A stretch of 64,000 nt of DNA from Streptomyces sp. LS1784 (GTDB lineage: Bacteria > Actinomycetota > Actinomycetes > Streptomycetales > Streptomycetaceae). Of the stretch, positions 39,439-54,668 are shown piece after piece. Positions within the stretch are counted from its first letter, which is position 1. Each line of letters starts with the position of its first letter. The translations under genes and the position numbers were made by a program. Under the pieces are notes generated by a model that worked only from the letters and a program-made list of their open reading frames with translations, was not told the DNA's origin and ran no database searches. The DNA is taken from the NCBI RefSeq assembly GCF_020103755.1, contig NZ_JAHSQD010000003.1:1-64000 (forward strand). The letters are read 5' to 3'.

Positions 39439-41220
39439 ATGACCGACAGCCCCGAGCAGGAGTACGACCCGGGTGACGTGGCCGTCATCGGCATGTCCCT
39501 ACGGGCTCCCGGAGCCCGCACCAAGGAACAGTTCTGGGACGTCCTCGTCAACGGCCGGGAGACCGTGTCCTTCCTGGCCAAGGACGACATCCACGTCGAC
39601 GAGACCCTGATCCACAGCCCGTTCTACGTGCGGGCCTGCGGCGTGCTCGACACGTACGACAAGTTCGACCCGTCGGTGTTCGGCATCAGCGACCGGATGG
39701 CGGCCGCGATGACCCCGGAGAACCGGCTGTTCCTGGAGAGCGCCTGGGAGTCGTTGGAGGACGGCGGCTACGACCCGGACCGGCTCAAGGCCGAGATCGG
39801 CATGTACGGCGCCAACAACCCGCAGACCGCCGCGCTCTACAGCTCCCCGCCGGACCGGGTGTCGGTCGGCCCCGAGGCGATCGAGGCCAGCCTGGCGTGG
39901 TCGCCGGACACCATGACCTCCAACGCGCTGTACTACATGGGGCTCACCGGCGAGGCCGTCACCGTCGCCACCGCCTGTGCGGGCTTCCACTACGCGGTGC
40001 ACCTGGCCTGTCAGTCGCTCCTGCTCGGCCAGAGCGACATGGCGATCGCCGGCGGCGCGATGGTCCGCCTGCCGCACCCCCGCGGTCACCTGTGGGAGGA
40101 GAACCGCATCCTGTCGAAGGACGGCCACTGCCGCCCGTTCGACGCCAACGGCACCGGCACGGCGCTGTCCAGCGGTGTCGTCACCGTGCTGTTGAAGCCG
40201 CTGGGCCGGGCCGTCGCCGACCGCGACCACGTCTACGCCGTGGTCAGGGGCTCGGCCGTCAACAACAACGGCGTCAGCGCGATGGCGTACGGCCTGGCCC
40301 AGCCCGAGCGGCTGAGCGCGTGCATCGCCGCCGCCATGGAGGTGGGCGGCGTCACCCCGGACACCGTCTCCATGTACGAGGCCAACGGTCTCGGCCTGCC
40401 GATGACCGACGAGCTCGAAGTGCACGCGGCGACCATGGCCTTCGGGAAGCAGACCGCGACCACCTCGATCGGCGGGGTCAAGGGCAACGTCGGCCACGGC
40501 GGCGTGGTGTCGGGCGGCTTCGGTGCGATCAAGGCCGCGCTGGCCCTGTACCACAAGACGCTCCCGGCGACGATCAACCTCACGGAGGTCAACCAGGACC
40601 TCGACTTCCCCAGCACCCCCTTCGTGCCGCAGATCGAAGGCGCGCACTGGGAGCCGGAGGCCGGCATCCGCCGCGCCGGCATCACCTCGATCGGCGGCGG
40701 CGGCTACAACGCGCACCTGCTGCTGGAGGAGGCGCCGGCCGTCGCCGAGCGCGCCCCCGAGGACGAGGGCAGGCCGCGGCTGGCGACCCTGTCCGCCCTG
40801 GACGACGACGCGCTGGCCCGTCAGCGCACCCGGCTCCGGGACTGGCTGGAGGCCGACCCCGGCCTGCGCCTGGACGACGTCTGCTTCACCCTCAACCTGG
40901 GCCGCAAGGTGATGGGCCGCCGGTGGGCGGCCGTGGTCCGCAGCCGCGAGGAGCTGATCGCGGCACTGGCCGACGACGCCCGCGGCCCGGTCACCACGAC
41001 CGTCGCCGCCCCGCAGACGGACCCGGGTTCCTTCTCGCTCGACGACAACGGGATCGTGCCGTCCGGCCGGGACGTGCGGGCGCTGTCCGACCTGGCCGCC
41101 GCCTGGGTGACCGGCCGGCAGGTGGACTTCGACGCCCTGCACCTCGGGGAGGCCAGCCGCCGCGTGCCGCTGCCCACCTACCCGTTCCAGCCCCGCCGGT
41201 TCTGGCGTACGGACTGGTGA
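39439..41220 (+). CDS. Stand-alone ketosynthase-like enzyme with HGTGT His replaced by Asn (SalC-type bicyclase candidate)
   Basis: A 593-residue KS-fold protein. The nucleophile is present (Cys180 in ATACAGFHY) and so is the second histidine (His353 in GNVGHGG), but the HGTGT-motif histidine is Asn316 (EANGLGLPMTDE). Loss of that residue normally abolishes decarboxylative condensation, so the enzyme probably binds an acyl chain without elongating it. SalC in salinosporamide biosynthesis is a free-standing KS that closes the gamma-lactam and beta-lactone, and this gene sits in the same position relative to SalA/SalB-like genes. The C-terminal ~170 residues resemble a KS-AT linker remnant ending VPLPTYPFQPRRFW. 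An AGGAG precedes the ATG. Confidence 0.92.
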   Translation: MTDSPEQEYDPGDVAVIGMSLRAPGARTKEQFWDVLVNGRETVSFLAKDDIHVDETLIHSPFYVRACGVLDTYDKFDPSVFGISDRMAAAMTPENRLFLESAWESLEDGGYDPDRLKAEIGMYGANNPQTAALYSSPPDRVSVGPEAIEASLAWSPDTMTSNALYYMGLTGEAVTVATACAGFHYAVHLACQSLLLGQSDMAIAGGAMVRLPHPRGHLWEENRILSKDGHCRPFDANGTGTALSSGVVTVLLKPLGRAVADRDHVYAVVRGSAVNNNGVSAMAYGLAQPERLSACIAAAMEVGGVTPDTVSMYEANGLGLPMTDELEVHAATMAFGKQTATTSIGGVKGNVGHGGVVSGGFGAIKAALALYHKTLPATINLTEVNQDLDFPSTPFVPQIEGAHWEPEAGIRRAGITSIGGGGYNAHLLLEEAPAVAERAPEDEGRPRLATLSALDDDALARQRTRLRDWLEADPGLRLDDVCFTLNLGRKVMGRRWAAVVRSREELIAALADDARGPVTTTVAAPQTDPGSFSLDDNGIVPSGRDVRALSDLAAAWVTGRQVDFDALHLGEASRRVPLPTYPFQPRRFWRTDW

Positions 41221-41222
41221 CC

Positions 41223-42455
41223 ATGAGCACTCCGGCACTGGACACCCTGGACCTGGGCGACCCGGCCACGTTCGCGGACCACGACCTCGACGGGTTCTGG
41301 CGCACCCTGCGGGACACCGCGCCGATGCACTGGAACCCTCCGGCCGGCGGCCGCCGCGGCTTCTGGGTGCTCTCCCGCTACGACGACATCATGGCCACCT
41401 ACCGGGACAACGTGAACTTCACGTCCGAGCGCGGCAACGTGCTCGTCACCCTCCTGGAGGGCGGCGACGCCGGGGCCGGCCGGATGCTGGCCGTCACCGA
41501 CGGGCCCCGGCACCTGGAGCTGCGCAAGATCCTCCAGCGGGTGCTCTCACCGAGGGTGCTCGACGAGGTCGCGCAGGCGGTCCGGCTCAACACCCGGCAG
41601 TGGATCCGCGAGGCCGTCGAGTCCGGCGGCTGCGACTTCGCGGAGCAGATCGCCGGCCGGATCCCGATGACCACGATCTCGAACCTGCTCGGCGTGCCCG
41701 AACGGGACCGGGACTACCTGCTCTCCCTGACCAAGACCGCGCTGTCGGCCGACGACGAGGACGTCGACGAGGTCGACTCCGAGATGGCCCGCAACGAGAT
41801 CCTGATGTACTTCATGGACATCGTCGAGGAGCGGCGCGAGTCGCCCGGCGACGACGTGATCAGCATGCTGATCGCCAGCTCCATCGACGGTGTGCCGCTG
41901 TCCGACGAGGACGTCGTGCTCAACTGCTACAGCCTGATCATCGGCGGCGACGAGACCAGCCGGCTGACGATGATCGACTGCGTCCGCACGCTCGCGGCCC
42001 GGCCCGAGCAGTGGCGGCGGCTCAAGCACGGCGAGGTCGCGGTCGAGACCGCCGTGGAGGAGGTGCTGCGCTGGGCATCGCCCACGATGCACTTCGGGCG
42101 CAGCGTCGAACGGGAGACCGAACTGCACGGCGTACGGCTGCGGCCGGGCGACATCGTCACGCTCTGGCACGCCTCCGGCAACCGGGACGAACGGGTCTTC
42201 GCGCGGCCCGAGGTGTTCGACCTCGGCCGCACCCCCAACAAGCACCTGGCCTTCGGCTACGGCCCGCACTTCTGTGTGGGCTCGTACCTGGCCAAGGTGG
42301 AGATCGCCGAACTCCTCAAGGCCCTGCGGGACTTCACCCTCGGCTTCGAGCAGACCGCCGCGGCGCTGCCGATCCGGTCCAACTTCCTGACCGGGTTCTC
42401 CACCATGCCGGTGCGCTTCCGACCCGACCACTCCGGACTGAAGGAGTGCGGATGA
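41223..42455 (+). CDS. Cytochrome P450, probable hydroxylase of a carrier-bound amino acid
   Basis: A 410-residue P450. The heme loop is FGYGPHFCVG with Cys351 as ligand, the K-helix is EEVLRW, and the I-helix oxygen-binding motif is GGDETSR in place of AGxDTT. The E-T variant recurs in P450s acting on carrier-bound substrates and in SalD-like enzymes. It starts two bases after the KS-like gene and overlaps the formyltransferase start as ATGA. Predicted reaction: beta-hydroxylation of the amino acid held on the PCP, supplying the oxygen later used for the beta-lactone or side chain (inference from the salinosporamide pathway). Confidence 0.93.
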   Translation: MSTPALDTLDLGDPATFADHDLDGFWRTLRDTAPMHWNPPAGGRRGFWVLSRYDDIMATYRDNVNFTSERGNVLVTLLEGGDAGAGRMLAVTDGPRHLELRKILQRVLSPRVLDEVAQAVRLNTRQWIREAVESGGCDFAEQIAGRIPMTTISNLLGVPERDRDYLLSLTKTALSADDEDVDEVDSEMARNEILMYFMDIVEERRESPGDDVISMLIASSIDGVPLSDEDVVLNCYSLIIGGDETSRLTMIDCVRTLAARPEQWRRLKHGEVAVETAVEEVLRWASPTMHFGRSVERETELHGVRLRPGDIVTLWHASGNRDERVFARPEVFDLGRTPNKHLAFGYGPHFCVGSYLAKVEIAELLKALRDFTLGFEQTAAALPIRSNFLTGFSTMPVRFRPDHSGLKECG

Positions 42456-43722: not shown

Positions 43723-46700
43723 GTGAGAACATCAGCAAGACGGTCGGGCAGCCTGCTCGCCGCGGCACTCGCCGCGGTCGCGCTGGCCGCGACCGCGGTG
43801 GTGCCGGCCGCCGCCACCGGAGGGACACCTCCGCCCGGCGTGACGGATGCCCAGGACACCGCCGAGAGCCTGGCCGTCCACGAGGCCGCCCGCACCGGCA
43901 AGCCGGTCGAGGTGCTCGCCAAGCGCAGCGAGACCAGCGACACCGTCGCCCAGCCCGACGGCAAGCTGAAGACCACCACCTACGTCCAGCCCAGGCGGGT
44001 GCGCAAGAACGGCGCCTGGGTGGAGCTCGACCCGACGCTGCAGTCGCTGCCCGGCGGCGCCGTCGCCCCCAAGGGGTCCACCGCGGACCTGCAGTTCTCC
44101 GGCGGCGGCAGCGCGCCGCTGGTCACGATGGCCCGGGCCGGCAAGGAGCTGAAGCTCAGCTGGCCGAAGCCGCTGCCCAAGCCGGCGGTCAACGGCGCGA
44201 CCGCCGAGTACGCGTCGATCCTGCCGGACGTGGACCTGCGGCTGTCCGCCACCAAGACCGGGTTCACCCAGGTCATCGTGGTGCACACCGCCGAAGCCGC
44301 GAAGAACCCCGAGCTGGACCAGCTCCGGCTCGGCCTGCACGGCAACGGCCTGACGTTCAGCCAGGAGGCGGACGGCACCCTCTCCGCGAAGGACCCGTCC
44401 GGCGGCGGCACCGTCTTCGAGGCGCCCGTCCCGGTCATGTGGGACTCCTCCAAGCCGGCCACCGCCACGCCGAGCGCCCCGGCGAACGCCCCGGCCGCCG
44501 CCCCCAAGGCTCTCAAGGCCGCCCCGCAGGCGGCTCCGCAGGCCGAGGCCGCCGCCCCCGCGCAGAACGCTCCCGCCGCCGGCCAGGACGACCCCGCCGC
44601 CGCCGGCTACGGCGACCTGCCCGGCGAGGGCGCCAAGATGACCCGGCTCAAGGTCGACCTGCCCAAGGACAGCCTGGTGCTGTCGCCCGACCAGGCCATG
44701 CTGGACGCCCCTGACACCGTCTACCCGGTGATGATCGACCCGGCGTGGAACACCCCGCACGCCGGCGACTGGGCGGGTGTCTCGCGCACCTACCCGAACC
44801 AGGCCTACTGGCACTTCACGTACAACAGCAGCTACGTCCACGACTGGGGCGTCGGCTACTGCGGCGACACCTCGCGGTGCGCGCCGACCGACGTGAAGCG
44901 GGCGTTCTTCCAGGTGCCCAACCCGTTCGCGGGCAAGCAGATCCTCAGCGCCACCTTCGGCACCTACGAGAGCTGGTCGTACTCCTGCGACGCCCGGCCC
45001 GTCGAGCTGTGGAACACCGGCTACATCGCCCCCGGCCTGACCTGGAACGGCCAGAACTCCTCCGGGTTCTGGGGCCGCTACCTGCAGACCATCAACACCG
45101 CGAAGGGCTGGGGCGGCAACTGCCCCGGCGGCTGGCTGGAGTACGGCGAAGACGGCGCGGTGCGCAACCTCGTCCAGGACGCCGCGAACTGGGGCTGGCC
45201 GACCATCACCTTCGGTCTGAAGGCCCAGAACGAGGGCGACACCCTCGCCTGGAAGCGCTTCACCGACGACGCCTACCTGTCGGTGTACTACAACCTGCGG
45301 CCCAACCAGATCCCGATGTCCGACATGACGATGTCGCCGGGCTCGGTCTGCCAGTACCCGGGCATCAAGATCAACAAGATGCCGCAGGTCACCACCCGGG
45401 CCACCGACCCGGACGGCGAGGCCATCGGCGTCCAGTTCGCGGTCGGCTGGGACGACGGCACCGGCCTGCGCCGGCGCTGGTGGTCCACCGGTTCGGAGGA
45501 CGCCGCACCGGGGTGGGACACCTTCAAGGCCTCCGGCTCGATCTTCTCCTGGCCGCTGCCGACCAACCTGCCGCAGAACCTCCAGCTCGACTGGGAGGCC
45601 CGCGCGTGGGACGGCGCGCAGTGGGGGCCGTGGTCCTCCGACGGTGACCCGACCGGCTGCTACTTCATCGTCGACACCTCCGCACCGGACGGCCCGGCGA
45701 TCACCTCGGACGCCTACCCGGGCTCCAAGGACGCCACCGCGGCGCTCCCGTGGACCGACGGCGTCGGCAGGAGCGGCTACTTCACCATGAAGTCGGCCGC
45801 CACCGACGTGGTCAAGTACCAGTGGGGCCTCGACACCTCACCGTCCGCGGCGAACGAGATCGCCACCAGCGGCGGCGCCGGCCAGAGCGTGCGCATCCAG
45901 CCGCAGACCGCCGGCGTGCACTTCCTCTCCGCCCGGGCCGTCGACGGCGCGGGCAACGCCTCGCAGCCCGAGACGTACTACTTCAACGTGCTCTCGGGCC
46001 AGACCCAGCGCGCCGCCTGGTCGATGGACGACCCGAGCGGCACCAGCGTCACCGGCGCCGGCGGCAACGTCGAGGCCGCGCTCGGGTCCGGCGCCACCCC
46101 GGGGGCGCCCGGCCACCTCAAGGAAGCCCTCGCCCTGAACGGCACTGCCAACGGCTACGCCGAGACCCAGGGCGCGGTGCTGGACACCACCCGCAGCTTC
46201 ACCGTCTCCTCCTGGGTCCGGTTCGACGGCACCACCGGAACCCGCGCGGCGGTCAGCCAGGGCGGCCCGGACTACTACGCCTTCCACCTCGGCATCGAGA
46301 ACGTCGCCGGCGTCCCCAAGTGGGGCTTCAAGGTCCAGACCGCGGCCGGCAACCAGGACGCGAGCACGATCGGCCTGCAGTCCACCGACCCCGCGACGAC
46401 TGGCGTGTGGACCCACCTGACCGGCGTCTGGAACGCGGACACGCGCACCATCCAGCTGTACGTCAACGGCACCCTCGCCAAGTCGGCCACCGCGAACGCG
46501 GTCTGGGACGGACACGGCCCGCTGGAGATCGGCCGCACCCGCTGGAAGGGCCAGTGGGTCGACTTCTGGCCCGGCGCCATCGACGAGGTCAGGATCTGGG
46601 ACCGCTCCCTGAGCCAGGCCGAGGTCACCGACGTGGCCGCCGACAAGCAACTCGCCATCGGCCGACCCGCCAAGGCGGTCTGGCACCTGGACGGCAGCGA

Positions 46701-48120
46701 CGCCAAGCCGGCCGGCACCGCCGAGACCGACAACCTCACCGCCTACAACGGCGTCGCGCTCGGCCGGCCCGGCATCGCCGACAAGGCGATCCACCTGGAC
46801 GGCGTGGACGACTACCTGCGCGGCACCCGCCCGCAGGTGGACGGCAGCCGGGACTTCTCGGTCTCCGCGTGGGTCAAGCTGCCCGCGCCGACCCCGGGTG
46901 ACACCACCGCGAAGATCGCGGTCAGCCAGATCGGCCAGCACAACAGCGAGTTCTCGCTGTACTACTCCACCTACTGGAAGCGCTGGGCCTTCGGCCGCTA
47001 CAAGGAGGACACCTCCGCCGACACCCTGGTCCGCACCTGGCAGCCCGACTGCACCCCGGGCACCCAGATCAACGGCGCGCCGTGCTTCGCCGGCACCACC
47101 GGCGAGTGGACCCACCTGCTGGGCGTCTCCGACACCGCCGCCAAGAAGCTGCGCTTCTACATCAACGGCTTCCTGGTCGGCGAGTCGGATTACACCCAGA
47201 ACGCGCCGTGGGCCAACCCCGGCCCGCTGCAGATCGGTGCCGTCAACCGCGAGGGCGCCAACGGCGAGTTCTTCGGCGGCGACATCGACGACGTGCGGCT
47301 CTACGACCGCGTCGTCACCGGCCCGGAGGCCAGCGCCATGGTGCAGCAGCGCCCGCAGCTGGCCGGCCGCTGGAAGCTCGCCTCGACCACCGGCACCCCG
47401 GCCGTCACCCCGGACGAGGGCCCGGCCAAGGCCGGCGCCCAGCTCGGCGGCGGCGCCTCGATCAAGGCCGACGGCGGCGTGCTGCCCGTCCCCGGCACCC
47501 TGCTGCTGGACGGCTCCACCGGCTACGCGGCCACCGGCTCCGTCCCGCTGCACACCGGCCAGAGCTTCACCCTGGCCGGCTGGGCGAACACGGCGGGCGT
47601 CCCGACCCGGAAGATGACCGCCCTGTCCATTGCCGGCGCCAACAGCAGCGCGGTCACCGTGCGTTGGGTCCCCCTGGGCAACGACCCCGTCACCGGGCAG
47701 CCGTCCGGCCAGTGGGAGGCCGAGGTGCGCGACACCGATGCCAACACCGGTGGGACGCGCACCAGGACGGCGCACACCTCGGCCATCTCCGTCATGGAGA
47801 ACTGGACCCACCTGGCGGTCAGCTACGACGCCTTCTCGGACCGGCTCGCCCTGTACGTCAACGGCCAGGTGGAGAACCAGGGCTGCGCGGACAACTCCAC
47901 CGGATGCACCCCGCACATCTCCTGGGCCGCCGGTGTCCCGCAGCCCTACGAGGCCGGCGGGGGCGTGCAGTTCGGCCGGAGCAAGGACGCCGGCGCCTGG
48001 GGCGAGTACTTCTCCGGTGAGCTGGACGACGTCTGGCTCTACCAGGGCGTGCTGAGCCCGGCGCAGATCGGCAAGCTCGCCAACTACAACGTCGAGCTGG
48101 ACACCTCCACCGGGGTCTGA
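43723..48120 (+). CDS. Secreted LamG-domain protein
   Basis: A 1465-residue exported protein. The signal peptide covers residues 1-31 (basic n-region, LLAAALAAVALAAT, cleavage near AAA). A long N-terminal region of unknown fold follows, with an Ala/Pro-rich linker at about 245-300. At the C-terminal side there are three LamG/concanavalin-type jellyroll domains: about 795-965 (FTVSSWVRFDGTTG), 1019-1200 (FSVSAWVKLP) and 1262-1450 (FTLAGWANTAG). Each ends with the IDEVRIWDRSL-type motif typical of LamG. Start is the GTG at 43723 with GGAG ten bases upstream. It is immediately followed by an RHS toxin-like gene, a pairing common in Streptomyces; role in adhesion or toxin display is an inference. 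Confidence 0.9.
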   Translation: MRTSARRSGSLLAAALAAVALAATAVVPAAATGGTPPPGVTDAQDTAESLAVHEAARTGKPVEVLAKRSETSDTVAQPDGKLKTTTYVQPRRVRKNGAWVELDPTLQSLPGGAVAPKGSTADLQFSGGGSAPLVTMARAGKELKLSWPKPLPKPAVNGATAEYASILPDVDLRLSATKTGFTQVIVVHTAEAAKNPELDQLRLGLHGNGLTFSQEADGTLSAKDPSGGGTVFEAPVPVMWDSSKPATATPSAPANAPAAAPKALKAAPQAAPQAEAAAPAQNAPAAGQDDPAAAGYGDLPGEGAKMTRLKVDLPKDSLVLSPDQAMLDAPDTVYPVMIDPAWNTPHAGDWAGVSRTYPNQAYWHFTYNSSYVHDWGVGYCGDTSRCAPTDVKRAFFQVPNPFAGKQILSATFGTYESWSYSCDARPVELWNTGYIAPGLTWNGQNSSGFWGRYLQTINTAKGWGGNCPGGWLEYGEDGAVRNLVQDAANWGWPTITFGLKAQNEGDTLAWKRFTDDAYLSVYYNLRPNQIPMSDMTMSPGSVCQYPGIKINKMPQVTTRATDPDGEAIGVQFAVGWDDGTGLRRRWWSTGSEDAAPGWDTFKASGSIFSWPLPTNLPQNLQLDWEARAWDGAQWGPWSSDGDPTGCYFIVDTSAPDGPAITSDAYPGSKDATAALPWTDGVGRSGYFTMKSAATDVVKYQWGLDTSPSAANEIATSGGAGQSVRIQPQTAGVHFLSARAVDGAGNASQPETYYFNVLSGQTQRAAWSMDDPSGTSVTGAGGNVEAALGSGATPGAPGHLKEALALNGTANGYAETQGAVLDTTRSFTVSSWVRFDGTTGTRAAVSQGGPDYYAFHLGIENVAGVPKWGFKVQTAAGNQDASTIGLQSTDPATTGVWTHLTGVWNADTRTIQLYVNGTLAKSATANAVWDGHGPLEIGRTRWKGQWVDFWPGAIDEVRIWDRSLSQAEVTDVAADKQLAIGRPAKAVWHLDGSDAKPAGTAETDNLTAYNGVALGRPGIADKAIHLDGVDDYLRGTRPQVDGSRDFSVSAWVKLPAPTPGDTTAKIAVSQIGQHNSEFSLYYSTYWKRWAFGRYKEDTSADTLVRTWQPDCTPGTQINGAPCFAGTTGEWTHLLGVSDTAAKKLRFYINGFLVGESDYTQNAPWANPGPLQIGAVNREGANGEFFGGDIDDVRLYDRVVTGPEASAMVQQRPQLAGRWKLASTTGTPAVTPDEGPAKAGAQLGGGASIKADGGVLPVPGTLLLDGSTGYAATGSVPLHTGQSFTLAGWANTAGVPTRKMTALSIAGANSSAVTVRWVPLGNDPVTGQPSGQWEAEVRDTDANTGGTRTRTAHTSAISVMENWTHLAVSYDAFSDRLALYVNGQVENQGCADNSTGCTPHISWAAGVPQPYEAGGGVQFGRSKDAGAWGEYFSGELDDVWLYQGVLSPAQIGKLANYNVELDTSTGV

Positions 48121-48135
48121 CCCCTCATCCTTCCG

Positions 48136-48166
48136 CGGGCCGGGCGGCTACCTGCCGCCCGGCCCG
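48136..48166 (+). terminator. Stem-loop between the LamG and RHS genes
   Basis: Perfect 13-base arms (48136-48148 and 48154-48166), 5-base loop, 43 bases before the RHS start. Either a terminator that separates the two genes or a partial one that lowers toxin-gene expression. Confidence 0.7.
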
Positions 48167-48209
48167 TGGTCTGCCATATCCACTTCCCTTTCGAGGAGTT
48201 GTTCCACCC

Positions 48210-51200
48210 ATGAGTAGGAAGAGGTCGGTGCCTCGGCCGGCCCGGTCCAGGGTGTCCGCGATCATCGCGGGCACGCTGGTCGGGTCGCTGCTGCCGGCAC
48301 TGCCACTGGCCGCCGTCGCGGCGGCCGCGGAACCGTACGCCAAGCCCTCCGCGGTCTCACCCGAGAAGCCGGTCAAGGGCTCGGACGCCAAGACCAAGGG
48401 CCGCAAGGCCGACACCACCGTCAGCAAGACGGACGGCAAGCACGGCGCGCTGCCCGGCGCGGGCAGCGCCACCGTCGACGTGCCCGGCGAGAAGGGCAAG
48501 GCGGTCAAGGCCGGCCAGCTGCCGGTCGCGCTCTCGTCCTCGGGCACGGCGGGCAAGGCCAAGGTCGAGCTGCTCGGCCAGGACGCCGCCGCCAAGGCCG
48601 GGATCAACGGCGTACTGCTGATCGTCTCCGGCGCCGACGAGAACAGCGGCCTGGCCGTCGACTACTCGTCCTTCGCCCAGGCCGCGGGCTCCGGCTTCGG
48701 CTCTCGTCTGAAGCTGGTCCGCCTGCCCGAGTGCGCGCTCACCACGCCCGACCTGCCCGAGTGCCGGGTGCAGACCCCGCTGCCGGGCGGCAACGACCCC
48801 GCGAAGCAGACCGTGGCGGCGGACACGCTGACCACGGCCCCGGCCGGGTCGATGCGCCTGCAGTCCGCGCCGGGCGCGATGGTGCTGGCCGCCACGGCCG
48901 GTACGGCTGGCCCGAGCGGCGACTACAAGGCGACGCCGCTGTCCAGCGCGTCGAGTTGGTCGACCGCGCTGAACAGCGGATCGTTCACCTGGTCGTACGA
49001 CATGCCGATCACCGCGATGCCCGGCGGGCTGACCCCGAAGGTCGGTCTGAGCTACAACTCCGGTGCGATCGACGGCCGCACGGCCAACAGCAACAACCAG
49101 GCGTCCTGGGTCGGTGACGGCTTCGACCTGTCGCCCGGCTTCGTCGAGCGCAGCTACAAGGCCTGTGCCGACGACGGCGCACCGAAGACCGGCACCTCCA
49201 ATCCGGGTGACCTGTGCTGGGGCACGGACAACGCGACCATCAGCTTCGCCGGGCACTCCGGTGAGCTGATCCCGGTCTCCGGCGACGAGTGGCGGCTCAA
49301 GAACGACGACGCGACGAAGATCGTGCGCGTCCGCGACACCGCCCGGGGCAACGGCGACAACGACGGCGAGTACTTCCGCGCCACCACGCCCGACGGCACC
49401 AACTACTACTTCGGCTACAACCGCCTGCCGAACTGGTCGGCGGGCAAGCCGGAGACCAAGTCCGTCTACACCGTGCCGGTCTACGGCAACAACGCCGGCG
49501 AGCCGTGCAACGGCGCCGACTTCGCCTCGTCCTGGTGTCAGCAGGGCTGGCGGTGGAACCTGGACCTGGTGGTCGACGCCCACGGCAACGACATCACGTA
49601 CTGGTACACGCCCGAGACCAACAACTACGGCCGCAACCTGAAGGCCACCGACCGCACCCCCTACATACGCGGCGGGCGCCTGGACCACATCGAGTACGGC
49701 CAGCAGCAGGGCGACCTGTACTCGGCCACCGTCAAGCCGATGGGCCGGGTCGAGTTCGGCACCGCCGAGCGCTGCCTGGAGACCGCGGCCGGCGTGTGCG
49801 ACCCGGCGAAGATCGACGCCAACCGGCAGTACTGGTACGACACCCCGTGGGACCAGAACTGCGCCGACGGCACCGACTGCACCGGCAAGTACTCCCCCAC
49901 CTACTTCACCCGCACCCGGCTCACCCAGGTCGTCGCCAAGACCCTGCAGGCCGACGGCAGCTACGCTGCCATCGACACCTGGGACCTGAAGCACAAGTGG
50001 GGCACCGCCGACTTCGACTACCAGCTCCTGCTGGACTCGATCCAGCACACCGGCACCTCCGCCACCCCGTCCGTCTCGCTGCCGAAGACCACCTTTGCCT
50101 ACAAGCAGCTGGCCAACCGGCTCGACAAGGTCGGCGACGGCCGCATGCCGTTCATCAAGCAGCGCCTGGGCACCATCACCGACGAGTTCGGCGGCCAGAT
50201 CGACGTCAACTACTCGGCGCCGGCCTGTGACTGGAACGCCCTGCCGACCCCGCAGAACAACACCACCCGCTGCTTCCCGCAGATGTACCAGGCCTCGCTG
50301 GAGAGCCCGGTGACCACGGAGTGGTTCAACAAGTACGTCGTCGAGTCGGTCATCGGCACCGACCGCACCGGCGGCGCACCCGACATGGTCACCCGCTACA
50401 GCTACCTCGGCGACGCGGCCTGGCACTTCGACGACGAGGACGGCCTGACCAAGGACAAGCTCAAGACCTGGTCCCAGTGGCGCGGCTACGCCCGCACCCG
50501 GGTGCAGACCGGCGGCGTCGCCGCCATGTCCACCCAGTCCGACCACTACTACCTGCGCGGCATGGACGGCGACCGCTCCGACCCCGCCGACAAGACGAAG
50601 AAGCGCACCGTCACCGTCGACGACGGCCAGGGCACCACGATCACCGACGACAACGCCTGGGCAGGCTTCGAGTACCGCACCGAGCAGTACGACAAGCCCG
50701 GCGGCGCGGTCCTCGGCAAGACCGTCAACACCCCCTGGAAGAAGGAGACCGCCAAGCGGGTCCGCGACTGGGGCACCACCACCGCCAACATCACCGGCAT
50801 CGCCGTCACCCGCGCCTTCACCTCGCTCGACAAGGGCGCGGGCAACACCTGGCGCGAGACCAGGAGCAACACCACCCGCGACGACTACGGCCGCTCCACG
50901 GTAGTGGAGGACCTCGGCGACGTGGCGGTCGCGGGCGACGAGAAGTGCACCCGCACCACCTACGCCGACAACACGGCCGCCTGGCTGCTGTCCAGCATCA
51001 TGCGCGTCGAGACCGTGGCCGTCGGCTGCGGGAGCGACGTCAGCCGGCAGACGCAGGCCGACGGCACCTCCGCCGTCCTGTCCGACAAGCGGGTGCGCTA
51101 TGACGGTCAGGCGTACGGCGCCGCGCCCACCAAGGGTGACGTCACGCTCGCGCAATCGCTCAAGTCGCAGACCGGCAACAGCGCGACCTACCTGGACAAC

Positions 51201-54200
51201 GCGTTCACGTACGACGTCTACGGACGTACGCTGACCTCCACCAACCTGGCCTCCATCACGATCTACGACACCACCGGCGCCACCGGGCCGGTCACGTCGG
51301 CCTCGCCGGACGCCCGGACCACCACCACGGCCTACACCCCGGCCACCGGCCGGCCCGCCAAGTCCGTGGTGACCAGCCCGCCCGCCAAGGCCGGCGACAC
51401 CACCACCACCCAGGTCACCACGACCGACTACGAGCCGGTACGCGGCCTGACGAACGACACCGTCGACGCCAACAACCGCCGCACCGACATCCAGTACGAC
51501 GCGCTCGGCCGCACCCTCAAGGTCTGGCAGCCCAACCGCTCGAAGGGCACCGGGCAGAGCCCCAACCACGAGTTCGAGTACGCTGTCACGGACGGCAAGA
51601 TCATCGCGATCTCCGCCAAGACGCTGAACAGCGACGGAACCCAGCAGACCGGGTACACGCTCTACGACGGCTTCGCCCGCGTGCGGCAGACCCAGGACCC
51701 GGCGGACAACGGCGGCCGCGTGCTGACCGACACCTTCTACGACGACCGCGGCCAGGCCGCCCTCGCCTACGCCCCGTACTACGCCACCGGCGCGCCCTCG
51801 ACAACGTTGCGCAACGTCGACGACACCACCGGGGTGGAGAGCCAGACCGCCACCGCCTACGACGGCCTCGGGCGGGTCGTCAGCGTCACGGCCCTCGCCG
51901 GCAACGGCGTCGGCACCCCGCTCTCCAGCACGCTCACCGAGTACGGCGGCGACCGGGTCACCATAACCCCGCCCACCGGCGGCACCCCGACCACCACCAT
52001 CTCCGATGCGGCCGGCCACACCACCGAGCTGCGCCAGTACAAGTCGGCGACCCCGACCGGCGCCTACGACGCGACCAGCTACGGCTACGACCCGGCGGGC
52101 AACCTCACCAAGCTGACCGACCCGTCCGGAACGGCCTGGACCTGGCTCTACGACCAGCTCGGCCGGCAGACCAAGGCGGTCGACCCGGACAGCGGAACCA
52201 CTGTCAAGGCGTACGGCAGCCGCGGCGAGCTGGCCAGCACCACCGACGGCCGCGGCAAGACGATCGCCAGCGTCTACGACAACCTCGGCCGCCTGATCGA
52301 GACCCACGAGGGCTCGGCCACCGGTCCGCTGCTGACCTCGCAGGCGTGGGACCCGTCCGGCAACAAGGGCGTGCTGTCCTCCAGCACCCGCTACAGCACC
52401 GTCGGCGGCACCACCTACCAGTACAAGACCGCCTACTCGCTGTTCGACACCCTCGGCCGGTCCACCCGGACCACCGTCACCGTCCCGTCCGTCCCCGGCC
52501 AGGAGGCCCTCGCCGGCAGCTACGTCAGCGGGAGCATCTACCGCCTCGACGGCCTGCCGCAGAGCATGACCTACCCGGCGGCCGGCAACCTGCCCGCGGA
52601 GTCCGTCTCGTTCACCTACGACGCGCTGCGCCGGCAGACCGCCGTCGAAGGCATCGGCAAGTACCTGACCAACCAGACCTTCAGCCTCACCGGCAAGCCG
52701 TTGCAGTCCACACTCAGCAACGGCACTGCCGGCAAGGAGCTGTACGTCACCAACTCCTACGAGTGGGGCACCCAGCGCCTCGCCTCCAGCCGCACCGACC
52801 AGTACGGCGTCACCGGAGCCGTTCGCGCCGCCGCCTACACCTACGACCAGGCCGGCAACGTCACCTCGGTCACGGACACCTCGCGCTCCGGCACCGACCG
52901 GCAGTGCTTCCGGTACGACTACCTGGCCCGCCTGACCGAGGCGTTCACCCCGAACGGCGCCGGCTGCCCGGACAGCCCGAACGGCGCCGCCCTCGGAGGC
53001 CCGGCCCCGTACTGGACCAGCTGGACCTACAACACCAACGGCACCCGGGCCACCGAGACCCGGCACGACGCCACCGGCAACACCGCCCAGGACGCCACCA
53101 CGACCTACACCTACCCCGCCGCCACCGCGGCCCGCCCGCACACCCTGACCGGCACCAGCACCGTCACCGGTGCCAACGGCACCCCCGTACCGGAGAGCTA
53201 CGACTACGACGACGCCGGCAACACCACGGGCCGGCACCTCAAGCCGTCGGGCAACCAGACCAGCGACCAGGCCCTGACCTGGGACGTGGAGGGCCGGCTC
53301 GGCAAGGTCGTCGACACCGTCACGACCACGACCGGCTCCACCACGACCGCCACCCGGAGCACCGACTACCTCTACGACGCCGGCGGCAACCGCCTGCTCG
53401 GCCACACCCTCGACTCCGCCAACCCCGCCGCCGAGAACTGGACCCTGTACCTCGGCGGCACCGAGCTCAACCTCGTCAAGGGCGCGGCGAAGCCCACCGC
53501 CACCCGCTACTACGCGCTGGGCGGTGCCACGGCCGTCCGCACCGACGACAACCGGGTGACCTTCCAGGTCGCCGACCACCACGGCACCGCCGAGGTCGGC
53601 GTCGACGCCACCACCGGCGCCGTCGCCCAGCGCCGCACCAACCCCTTCGGTGGCATCCGCGGCACCGCCCCGTCCACCTGGGCCGGCACCCGGGGCTTCC
53701 TCGGCGGCACCAGCGACACCACCGGGCTCACCCACCTCGGCGCCCGCGAGTACGACCCGGCCACCGGACGGTTCATCAGCGTCGACCCGGTGATGACCAT
53801 GTCGGACCCGCAGTCGCTGGCGGCGTACACCTACGGCGACAACAACCCGCTGACCCTCAGCGACCCGACCGGGCGCAACATCCTTGAGGGCCTGTTCAAC
53901 TCCATCACGGCGCTCCTGAAGGCCATCCGGGCGACCAAGAAGGAACTCGGGATCAAGCACCCGATGGACAGGACGAGCGCGCACAACAACGCGCAGGAGG
54001 TCGCCGCCGGGGAGATCAAGAAGCAGGCGTCCAAGATGGGGGCGAACAAGTTCGAGGTCCTGCAGGGCGCCTCGGTTCCCCGGGCCACTAAGAAGTGCAT
54101 GGACGACCCCTCGCTGACGGACTGCAACAACGGCTTCGTCGACATCCTCGGCCACGACCCCAAGAGCGACGTCTACTACGTGTGGGAGGTCAAGTCCGCC

Positions 54201-54668
54201 GGTGAGGCGTCCAAGGCCGTGCCGGAGGCCGAGTGGTACGTGAAGAAGCTGCAGGAGGACGGCAAGCAGGCGGTCCTCGGGTGGAGCATCGCCGGCCCCT
54301 ACGACGTGCCCGACGGCAACATCGTGGTCGGCCCGGCGGAGGGTGCGGTGATCTACGGGAAGCCGGACAATCAGAAGATGAAGCAGCACATGCCCGCTTC
54401 CGGTACGGCGCAGCAGTCGCAGGCCGCACGGGTGCCCACCGCCACTCCCGGCCCGGCGCCCGGCAAGTACCCTGGCACCGCGCACCAGCCGGGTCTGGGG
54501 ACCACGCCGCTGGCCGACAGCGGGGTGAGCATGGCGCCGCTGTTGATCCCGGCCGGGGTCCTCGTCATCGCGGGAGTCGTGGCAGGTGCCCCGGTGGAGG
54601 CCGGAGCCGCTGCGGGGACGGCGACGACCGTGGCCGTGACGCAGGCGCTGTTCGACCTGGCAGCATGA
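48210..54668 (+). CDS. RHS/YD-repeat polymorphic toxin with PD-(D/E)XK-like C-terminal domain
   Basis: A 2152-residue secreted protein. A signal peptide (about 1-40, IIAGTLVGSLLPALPLAAVAAA) is followed by a SpvB-like N-terminal region (WSYDMPITAMPGGLTPKVGLSYNSG), many YD repeats and the RHS core ending GLTHLGAREYDPATGRFISV...DPTGR at about residue 1885. The variable C-terminal 268 residues contain Asp1978 (GFVDILGHD) and Glu1993-Val-Lys1995 (WEVKS), the arrangement of a PD-(D/E)XK nuclease site. An odd feature is a hydrophobic segment near the very end (LLIPAGVLVIAGVVAGA). The next gene looks like its immunity partner. The toxin's nuclease activity is predicted from the motif only. Confidence 0.88.
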   Translation: MSRKRSVPRPARSRVSAIIAGTLVGSLLPALPLAAVAAAAEPYAKPSAVSPEKPVKGSDAKTKGRKADTTVSKTDGKHGALPGAGSATVDVPGEKGKAVKAGQLPVALSSSGTAGKAKVELLGQDAAAKAGINGVLLIVSGADENSGLAVDYSSFAQAAGSGFGSRLKLVRLPECALTTPDLPECRVQTPLPGGNDPAKQTVAADTLTTAPAGSMRLQSAPGAMVLAATAGTAGPSGDYKATPLSSASSWSTALNSGSFTWSYDMPITAMPGGLTPKVGLSYNSGAIDGRTANSNNQASWVGDGFDLSPGFVERSYKACADDGAPKTGTSNPGDLCWGTDNATISFAGHSGELIPVSGDEWRLKNDDATKIVRVRDTARGNGDNDGEYFRATTPDGTNYYFGYNRLPNWSAGKPETKSVYTVPVYGNNAGEPCNGADFASSWCQQGWRWNLDLVVDAHGNDITYWYTPETNNYGRNLKATDRTPYIRGGRLDHIEYGQQQGDLYSATVKPMGRVEFGTAERCLETAAGVCDPAKIDANRQYWYDTPWDQNCADGTDCTGKYSPTYFTRTRLTQVVAKTLQADGSYAAIDTWDLKHKWGTADFDYQLLLDSIQHTGTSATPSVSLPKTTFAYKQLANRLDKVGDGRMPFIKQRLGTITDEFGGQIDVNYSAPACDWNALPTPQNNTTRCFPQMYQASLESPVTTEWFNKYVVESVIGTDRTGGAPDMVTRYSYLGDAAWHFDDEDGLTKDKLKTWSQWRGYARTRVQTGGVAAMSTQSDHYYLRGMDGDRSDPADKTKKRTVTVDDGQGTTITDDNAWAGFEYRTEQYDKPGGAVLGKTVNTPWKKETAKRVRDWGTTTANITGIAVTRAFTSLDKGAGNTWRETRSNTTRDDYGRSTVVEDLGDVAVAGDEKCTRTTYADNTAAWLLSSIMRVETVAVGCGSDVSRQTQADGTSAVLSDKRVRYDGQAYGAAPTKGDVTLAQSLKSQTGNSATYLDNAFTYDVYGRTLTSTNLASITIYDTTGATGPVTSASPDARTTTTAYTPATGRPAKSVVTSPPAKAGDTTTTQVTTTDYEPVRGLTNDTVDANNRRTDIQYDALGRTLKVWQPNRSKGTGQSPNHEFEYAVTDGKIIAISAKTLNSDGTQQTGYTLYDGFARVRQTQDPADNGGRVLTDTFYDDRGQAALAYAPYYATGAPSTTLRNVDDTTGVESQTATAYDGLGRVVSVTALAGNGVGTPLSSTLTEYGGDRVTITPPTGGTPTTTISDAAGHTTELRQYKSATPTGAYDATSYGYDPAGNLTKLTDPSGTAWTWLYDQLGRQTKAVDPDSGTTVKAYGSRGELASTTDGRGKTIASVYDNLGRLIETHEGSATGPLLTSQAWDPSGNKGVLSSSTRYSTVGGTTYQYKTAYSLFDTLGRSTRTTVTVPSVPGQEALAGSYVSGSIYRLDGLPQSMTYPAAGNLPAESVSFTYDALRRQTAVEGIGKYLTNQTFSLTGKPLQSTLSNGTAGKELYVTNSYEWGTQRLASSRTDQYGVTGAVRAAAYTYDQAGNVTSVTDTSRSGTDRQCFRYDYLARLTEAFTPNGAGCPDSPNGAALGGPAPYWTSWTYNTNGTRATETRHDATGNTAQDATTTYTYPAATAARPHTLTGTSTVTGANGTPVPESYDYDDAGNTTGRHLKPSGNQTSDQALTWDVEGRLGKVVDTVTTTTGSTTTATRSTDYLYDAGGNRLLGHTLDSANPAAENWTLYLGGTELNLVKGAAKPTATRYYALGGATAVRTDDNRVTFQVADHHGTAEVGVDATTGAVAQRRTNPFGGIRGTAPSTWAGTRGFLGGTSDTTGLTHLGAREYDPATGRFISVDPVMTMSDPQSLAAYTYGDNNPLTLSDPTGRNILEGLFNSITALLKAIRATKKELGIKHPMDRTSAHNNAQEVAAGEIKKQASKMGANKFEVLQGASVPRATKKCMDDPSLTDCNNGFVDILGHDPKSDVYYVWEVKSAGEASKAVPEAEWYVKKLQEDGKQAVLGWSIAGPYDVPDGNIVVGPAEGAVIYGKPDNQKMKQHMPASGTAQQSQAARVPTATPGPAPGKYPGTAHQPGLGTTPLADSGVSMAPLLIPAGVLVIAGVVAGAPVEAGAAAGTATTVAVTQALFDLAA

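Follow-up and report, generated by a model that had tools for sequence, protein, structure and literature searches.

Organization of the operon

The window, by which we mean the whole 64,000-nucleotide stretch of Streptomyces sp. LS1784 DNA that was analysed, contains five closely packed genes, here termed A, B, C, D and F, the last two of which overlap by four bases (Table 1).

Table 1. Genes of the operon, and motifs and domains of the gene C protein
Feature	Position in window	Strand	Basis
Gene A (SalA/LctA-like), ACP-KS-AT-AT-ACP-C hybrid PKS-NRPS, 2012 aa	31547..37585	+	Pfam, motifs
Gene B (SalB/LctB-like), NRPS A-T didomain, 606 aa	37582..39402	+	Pfam/NCBIfam
Gene C, putative SalC-like stand-alone ketosynthase-fold cyclase	39439..41220	+	593 aa + stop codon, Cys180/Asn316/His353
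TACAGF motif, residues 178-183, nucleophile Cys180	39970..39987	+	translation
EANGLGLPMTDE motif, residues 314-325, Asn316 replacing decarboxylation His	40378..40413	+	translation, family and control alignments
KGNVGHG motif, residues 348-354, His353	40480..40500	+	translation
KS-AT linker domain and C-terminal tail PLPTYPFQPRRFWRTDW, PKS-module remnants	40780..41217	+	PF22336/PF22621; 7S2X alignment
Gene D (SalD/LctD-like), cytochrome P450, 410 aa, haem-Cys motif FGYGPHFCVG	41223..42455	+	Pfam, motif
Gene F (LctF-like), putative 10-formyl-THF-dependent formyltransferase, 231 aa	42452..43147	+	PF00551

Each of the 20 homologous loci has gene A, at an identity of 79-90%, and its ketosynthase (KS) in the window is intact, with Cys, His and His kept in AACAG, VECHGSATPLGDP and KSNVGH. 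Its two acyltransferase (AT) domains carry unusual motifs, GQSVG with HAPHS in one and GHSLG with RPVHS in the other, and neither HAPHS nor RPVHS matches the standard malonyl or methylmalonyl signatures. The adenylation domain of gene B has the code DLMSVGAVF (read by eye), which describes a hydrophobic pocket but departs from the textbook code for Leu; most gene B orthologues read DMMNVGAVF, also by eye, and the code varies among them between Leu and Met at 236 and among Ser, Asn and His at 278. Gene D, 74-94% identical across the homologous loci, probably encodes the β-hydroxylase of the amino acid.

In gene F, GYHPSLLP and RTD[GA]GP are invariant among 23 sequences, all of which therefore retain the His that belongs to the SLLP-type motif as well as the Asp further along. 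The best PDB relatives of this protein are hydrolase domains from 10-formyl-THF dehydrogenase, whose carrier domain receives the formyl group on its 4'-phosphopantetheine (PMC8748788); the same formyl-transfer mechanism has been discussed for 10-formyl-THF dehydrogenase and HypX (PMC6802093). The simplest reading of these relationships suggests that F loads formyl on the N-terminal ACP of gene A.

There is no MbtH gene within the operon of the window, where D directly overlaps F; an MbtH-like gene adjoins D in many orthologous loci, lying between D and F (e.g. L031 and L045), and the genome has 10 MbtH matches elsewhere. A search of the genome for an additional, SalI-like proteasome subunit that would confer self-resistance found none; the only proteasome-family matches there are two adjacent ones (C380:5270-6557), presumably the housekeeping pair. 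On the downstream side of the operon (43723-54668), we observed a protein of 1465 aa that carries laminin-G-type domains and an open reading frame of 2152 aa that by eye resembles an RHS/YD-repeat protein, both of which are probably unrelated to the cluster.

An asparagine in place of the decarboxylation histidine

Pfam recognizes in the gene C protein the N- and C-terminal KS domains, a KS C-terminal extension and a RhiE/CurL-like KS-AT linker. No AT domain is detected by Pfam, and a tail of the post-AT type is kept, in which PLPTYPFQ begins at residue 577 and PLPTYPFQPRRFWRTDW is the end of the protein. Translation and alignment agree that the HGTGT-motif His of elongating ketosynthases is absent and that Asn316 occupies its site, within EANGLG (residues 314-319; YEANGLGLPMTDE), where EAHGTGT..GDP is read elsewhere. 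A preliminary description of this open reading frame had named Cys180, Asn316, His353 and a linker remnant, and translation and Pfam showed it to be correct throughout.

The alignment with SalC and elongating ketosynthases that this description had proposed places Asn on Asn at site 316 of SalC, and the same column holds His in 40 of 42 non-SalC control KS domains, a non-random sample of ketosynthases (the PKS encoded by the operon, homologues of this PKS, Kitasatospora, and six plasmid-borne PKS loci) of which some were picked through a tblastn match to the query. The two exceptions are a Gln and an Asn; both belong to a single Rhizobium assembly line, which is AT-less (trans-AT-type), and the two domains resemble non-elongating ketosynthases (KS0). 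Within the family, Asn316 and Cys180 are present in all 29 distinct sequences and His353 in 28. An alignment artefact at Asn316 is ruled out by the phmmer alignment, which pairs it with the Asn of SalC and has no gaps around position 316, and a sequencing error by the recurrence of the residue in every distinct family sequence. Judged from these alignments, loss of the decarboxylation His is the norm of the SalC family, being neither a peculiarity of gene C nor a new discovery.

Because this His is missing, the gene C protein should not elongate, and the earlier proposal of a non-decarboxylating ketosynthase is thus borne out at the level of sequence, with Asn316 as a family-wide state. That the protein is a working condensing ketosynthase despite its Asn would be compatible with the retained Cys and second His; we give this reading almost no credence, however, given the absence of the decarboxylation His throughout the family, the close homology to SalC, and the fact that neither an AT nor an ACP accompanies the protein.

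Two further features of the family were observed. In the C homologue of Streptomyces sp. SID12501 (L047:10001-11782), whose cluster order is rearranged, Asn replaces His353 (KGNVGNAGV), and this homologue is either a dead copy or one of altered mechanism. Beside Asn316, the gene C protein has Leu318 and Glu325, as do nearly all C homologues from loci bearing a formyltransferase, whereas Phe318 is combined with Ser or Gly at 325 in SalC (Phe318/Ser325) and in the two loci L050 and L068 described below; positions 318 and 325 are a possible substrate-size switch.

Relation to SalC and ancestry

The best match of the gene C protein in the PDB is SalC (7S2X), to which it is 66% identical over residues 1-593 of 593 (phmmer, E=1e-271, 905.7 bits), while the next-best PDB sequence scores 531.5 bits. 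In the same phmmer alignment, Cys180, Asn316 and His353 are each paired with the identical residue, at the same number, in SalC. SalC is an aldolase/β-lactone synthase (PMC9582728, which cites Bauman et al. 2022). Salinosporamide, an anticancer compound, owes the closure of its ring system to this enzyme. By sequence, the gene C protein is a clear SalC relative: enzymes of this kind have been described before, and gene C adds another putative SalC-type cyclase to them.

In a maximum-likelihood tree of 49 KS domains, the SalC family including the gene C protein forms one clade with a support of 100 and a long stem. This clade is nested in a larger group, also with a support of 100, together with KSs of the NRPS/PKS hybrid type and related KSs, while its exact sister group receives a support of 37. 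Neither the KS of the operon itself nor either of the KS0-like domains belongs to the larger group. Descent from a PKS module, which had been proposed from the linker remnant, is borne out in the sequence by this placement and by the retention of the KS-AT linker and the post-AT-type tail. The ancestor of gene C was probably, to judge from the tree, a KS that accepted an aminoacyl chain from an NRPS, an origin in keeping with a substrate that has an amino acid at its end. Two other origins were rejected: gene C is not a duplicate of the operon's own KS, as the KS of gene A lies elsewhere in the tree, nor does it have a KS0 ancestry, as the KS0-like domains lie outside the group that contains SalC.

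The tree also bears on whether the gene C protein is a non-elongating KS0, carrying out only chain transacylation as in the His-lacking trans-AT PKSs. Its retained Cys and its linker are compatible with transacylation, and the KS0-like domains of L062 similarly have Asn or Gln at the site, with TD for GD (EANGSGSEVTD and EGQGTANPVTD). Nevertheless, because the gene C protein lies apart from these domains in the tree, its Asn and that of the Rhizobium KS0 are, on this phylogeny, of separate origin; in addition, the reported role of SalC, its 66% identical relative, is that of a cyclase, and the operon has no downstream module to receive a chain. We consider a KS0 function very improbable.

Distribution of the cluster and the choice of starter

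A scan of GTDB genomes returned 20 close loci, in Streptomyces and Kitasatospora, every one of which has A, B, C, D and F; the same set is found in loci L049 and L069. Even in L047, where the order is shuffled to B, D, A, C, F, all five genes are retained. In the window's genus, 11 of 70 genomes, the window's own counted, have gene C at an identity of at least 87%. The gene is also present in 17 of 394 genomes of the family sample and in 1 of 396 of the phylum-wide sample, this being solely the window's own. The SalA/B/D-like operon with a cyclase that had been read from the window alone is thereby substantiated in sequence, A-B-C-D being conserved across about 20 loci.

Two more distant SalC-type loci, L050 on a plasmid of Streptomyces sp. 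WZ-12 and L068 in a member of the Streptomycetaceae, have A, B, C and D orthologues at 57-73% identity, keep Asn316 as the gene C protein does, and have MbtH adjoining D; F is absent from both. Since these loci have A-D without F, F marks a subgroup of the SalC-type loci, and L050 and L068 presumably use another starter. The L050 cluster (A-B-C-D-MbtH without formyltransferase, L050:9927-27415) has neighbours that differ from those of the window's operon, adjoining genes for phenylacetate-CoA ligase-like, class IV aminotransferase, ornithine cyclodeaminase-like and PhzF-like proteins, and its product is possibly a different γ-lactam-β-lactone.

The role of F separates two views of the pathway that both hold gene C to be a SalC-type cyclase. 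If the starter were acetyl, the operon would make a ketone-derived product of the salinosporamide/cinnabaramide type, and F would serve, for example, in N- or O-formylation as a tailoring enzyme. SalA reportedly has the architecture ACP-KS-AT-AT-ACP-C and uses an acetyl starter, and gene A shares this architecture and keeps two AT domains, one of which would be able to load the starter. Against this, F is fixed in all close loci, the shuffled L047 included, is absent from L050 and L068, and resembles a domain by which a carrier protein is charged with formyl, so we hold an acetyl starter to be unlikely. The formyltransferase gene, which the preliminary description did not include, accounts for the expected aldehyde (3-oxopropionyl) nature of the substrate, and it indicates a product of the lactacystin type and not of the salinosporamide type.

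Proposed pathway and product

We hypothesize, with a probability that we put at roughly 0.88, that gene C encodes a SalC-type bicyclase in a formyl-started pathway whose predicted product is lactacystin/omuralide-like. Gene content, homology, residue identities and operon conservation were computed here; from these, with catalysis taken over from SalC and related enzymes, we infer every step of the pathway. F would charge the N-terminal ACP of gene A with a formyl group taken from 10-formyl-THF, and the intact KS of gene A would condense this group with an AT-loaded methyl- or alkylmalonyl unit to give a 2-alkyl-3-oxopropionyl-ACP, an aldehyde. The C domain of A would couple this chain to the amino acid held on B, which is expected to be aliphatic and is probably leucine, and the P450 D would hydroxylate the β carbon of the amino acid. 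The gene C protein would then take the chain onto Cys180 and deprotonate the α carbon of the amino acid; attack of this carbon on the aldehyde (aldol) would close the γ-lactam, and attack of the new hydroxyl on the Cys thioester would release the γ-lactam-β-lactone. The suggestion, made when the sequence was first described, that this ketosynthase is a cyclase gains support from the 66% identity to SalC, the clade with a support of 100 and the A-B-C-D operon.

Since the AT motifs are non-standard and the A-domain code differs between orthologues, the product may, as a tentative variant of this pathway, be a formyl-started γ-lactam-β-lactone other than lactacystin, from which it would differ in the alkyl branch or the amino acid; we regard this as the less likely outcome, and if it is true, the gene C protein would be a SalC-type cyclase that accepts another range of substrates.

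In covalent proteasome inhibitors, the reactive core is made by SalC-type enzymes in a single step, and the cluster, widespread in Streptomyces and Kitasatospora, very probably directs, to judge from its genes, the synthesis of a lactacystin-like inhibitor of this kind. While the gene C cluster opens no new kind of biology, the presence of the five-gene set in many genomes of these genera offers about two dozen natural cyclase variants for enzyme comparison, together with natural variants of a formyl-loading PKS starter system that would be useful for analogue production.

Comparison with known systems

KS0 domains of trans-AT PKSs are like the gene C protein in having lost the same His, with an Asn/Gln-G motif and a change of GD to TD (L062), but they are embedded in assembly lines and have a separate place in the tree. 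With SalC of Salinispora, which serves in the formation of salinosporamide A, the gene C protein has in common full-length homology and the residues Cys180, Asn316 and His353; both are stand-alone ketosynthases with a linker and an LP.YPF..RRFWRTDW tail, and the gene context of SalC, which we take to be A-B-C-D, is the same as that of gene C. Unlike the salinosporamide system, the operon of gene C additionally has a formyltransferase, and the predicted electrophile is an aldehyde rather than a ketone.

Lactacystin is built from a leucine-derived part and a part equivalent to methylmalonate semialdehyde. A lactazole precursor, looked for in the draft genome of 1294 contigs as a sign of the lactacystin producer S. 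lactacystinaeus, gave no match in a search that had no positive control, and this result carries no weight for or against that identity. Its cluster, lctA-F, is said to comprise a PKS/NRPS (LctA), an NRPS (LctB), a KS-like cyclase (LctC), a P450 (LctD), an MbtH protein (LctE) and a formyltransferase (LctF). The gene content of the window's operon matches this composition in that F accompanies PKS/NRPS, NRPS, KS-cyclase and P450 genes; it differs in MbtH, which the lct cluster reportedly has, as do many of the orthologous loci.
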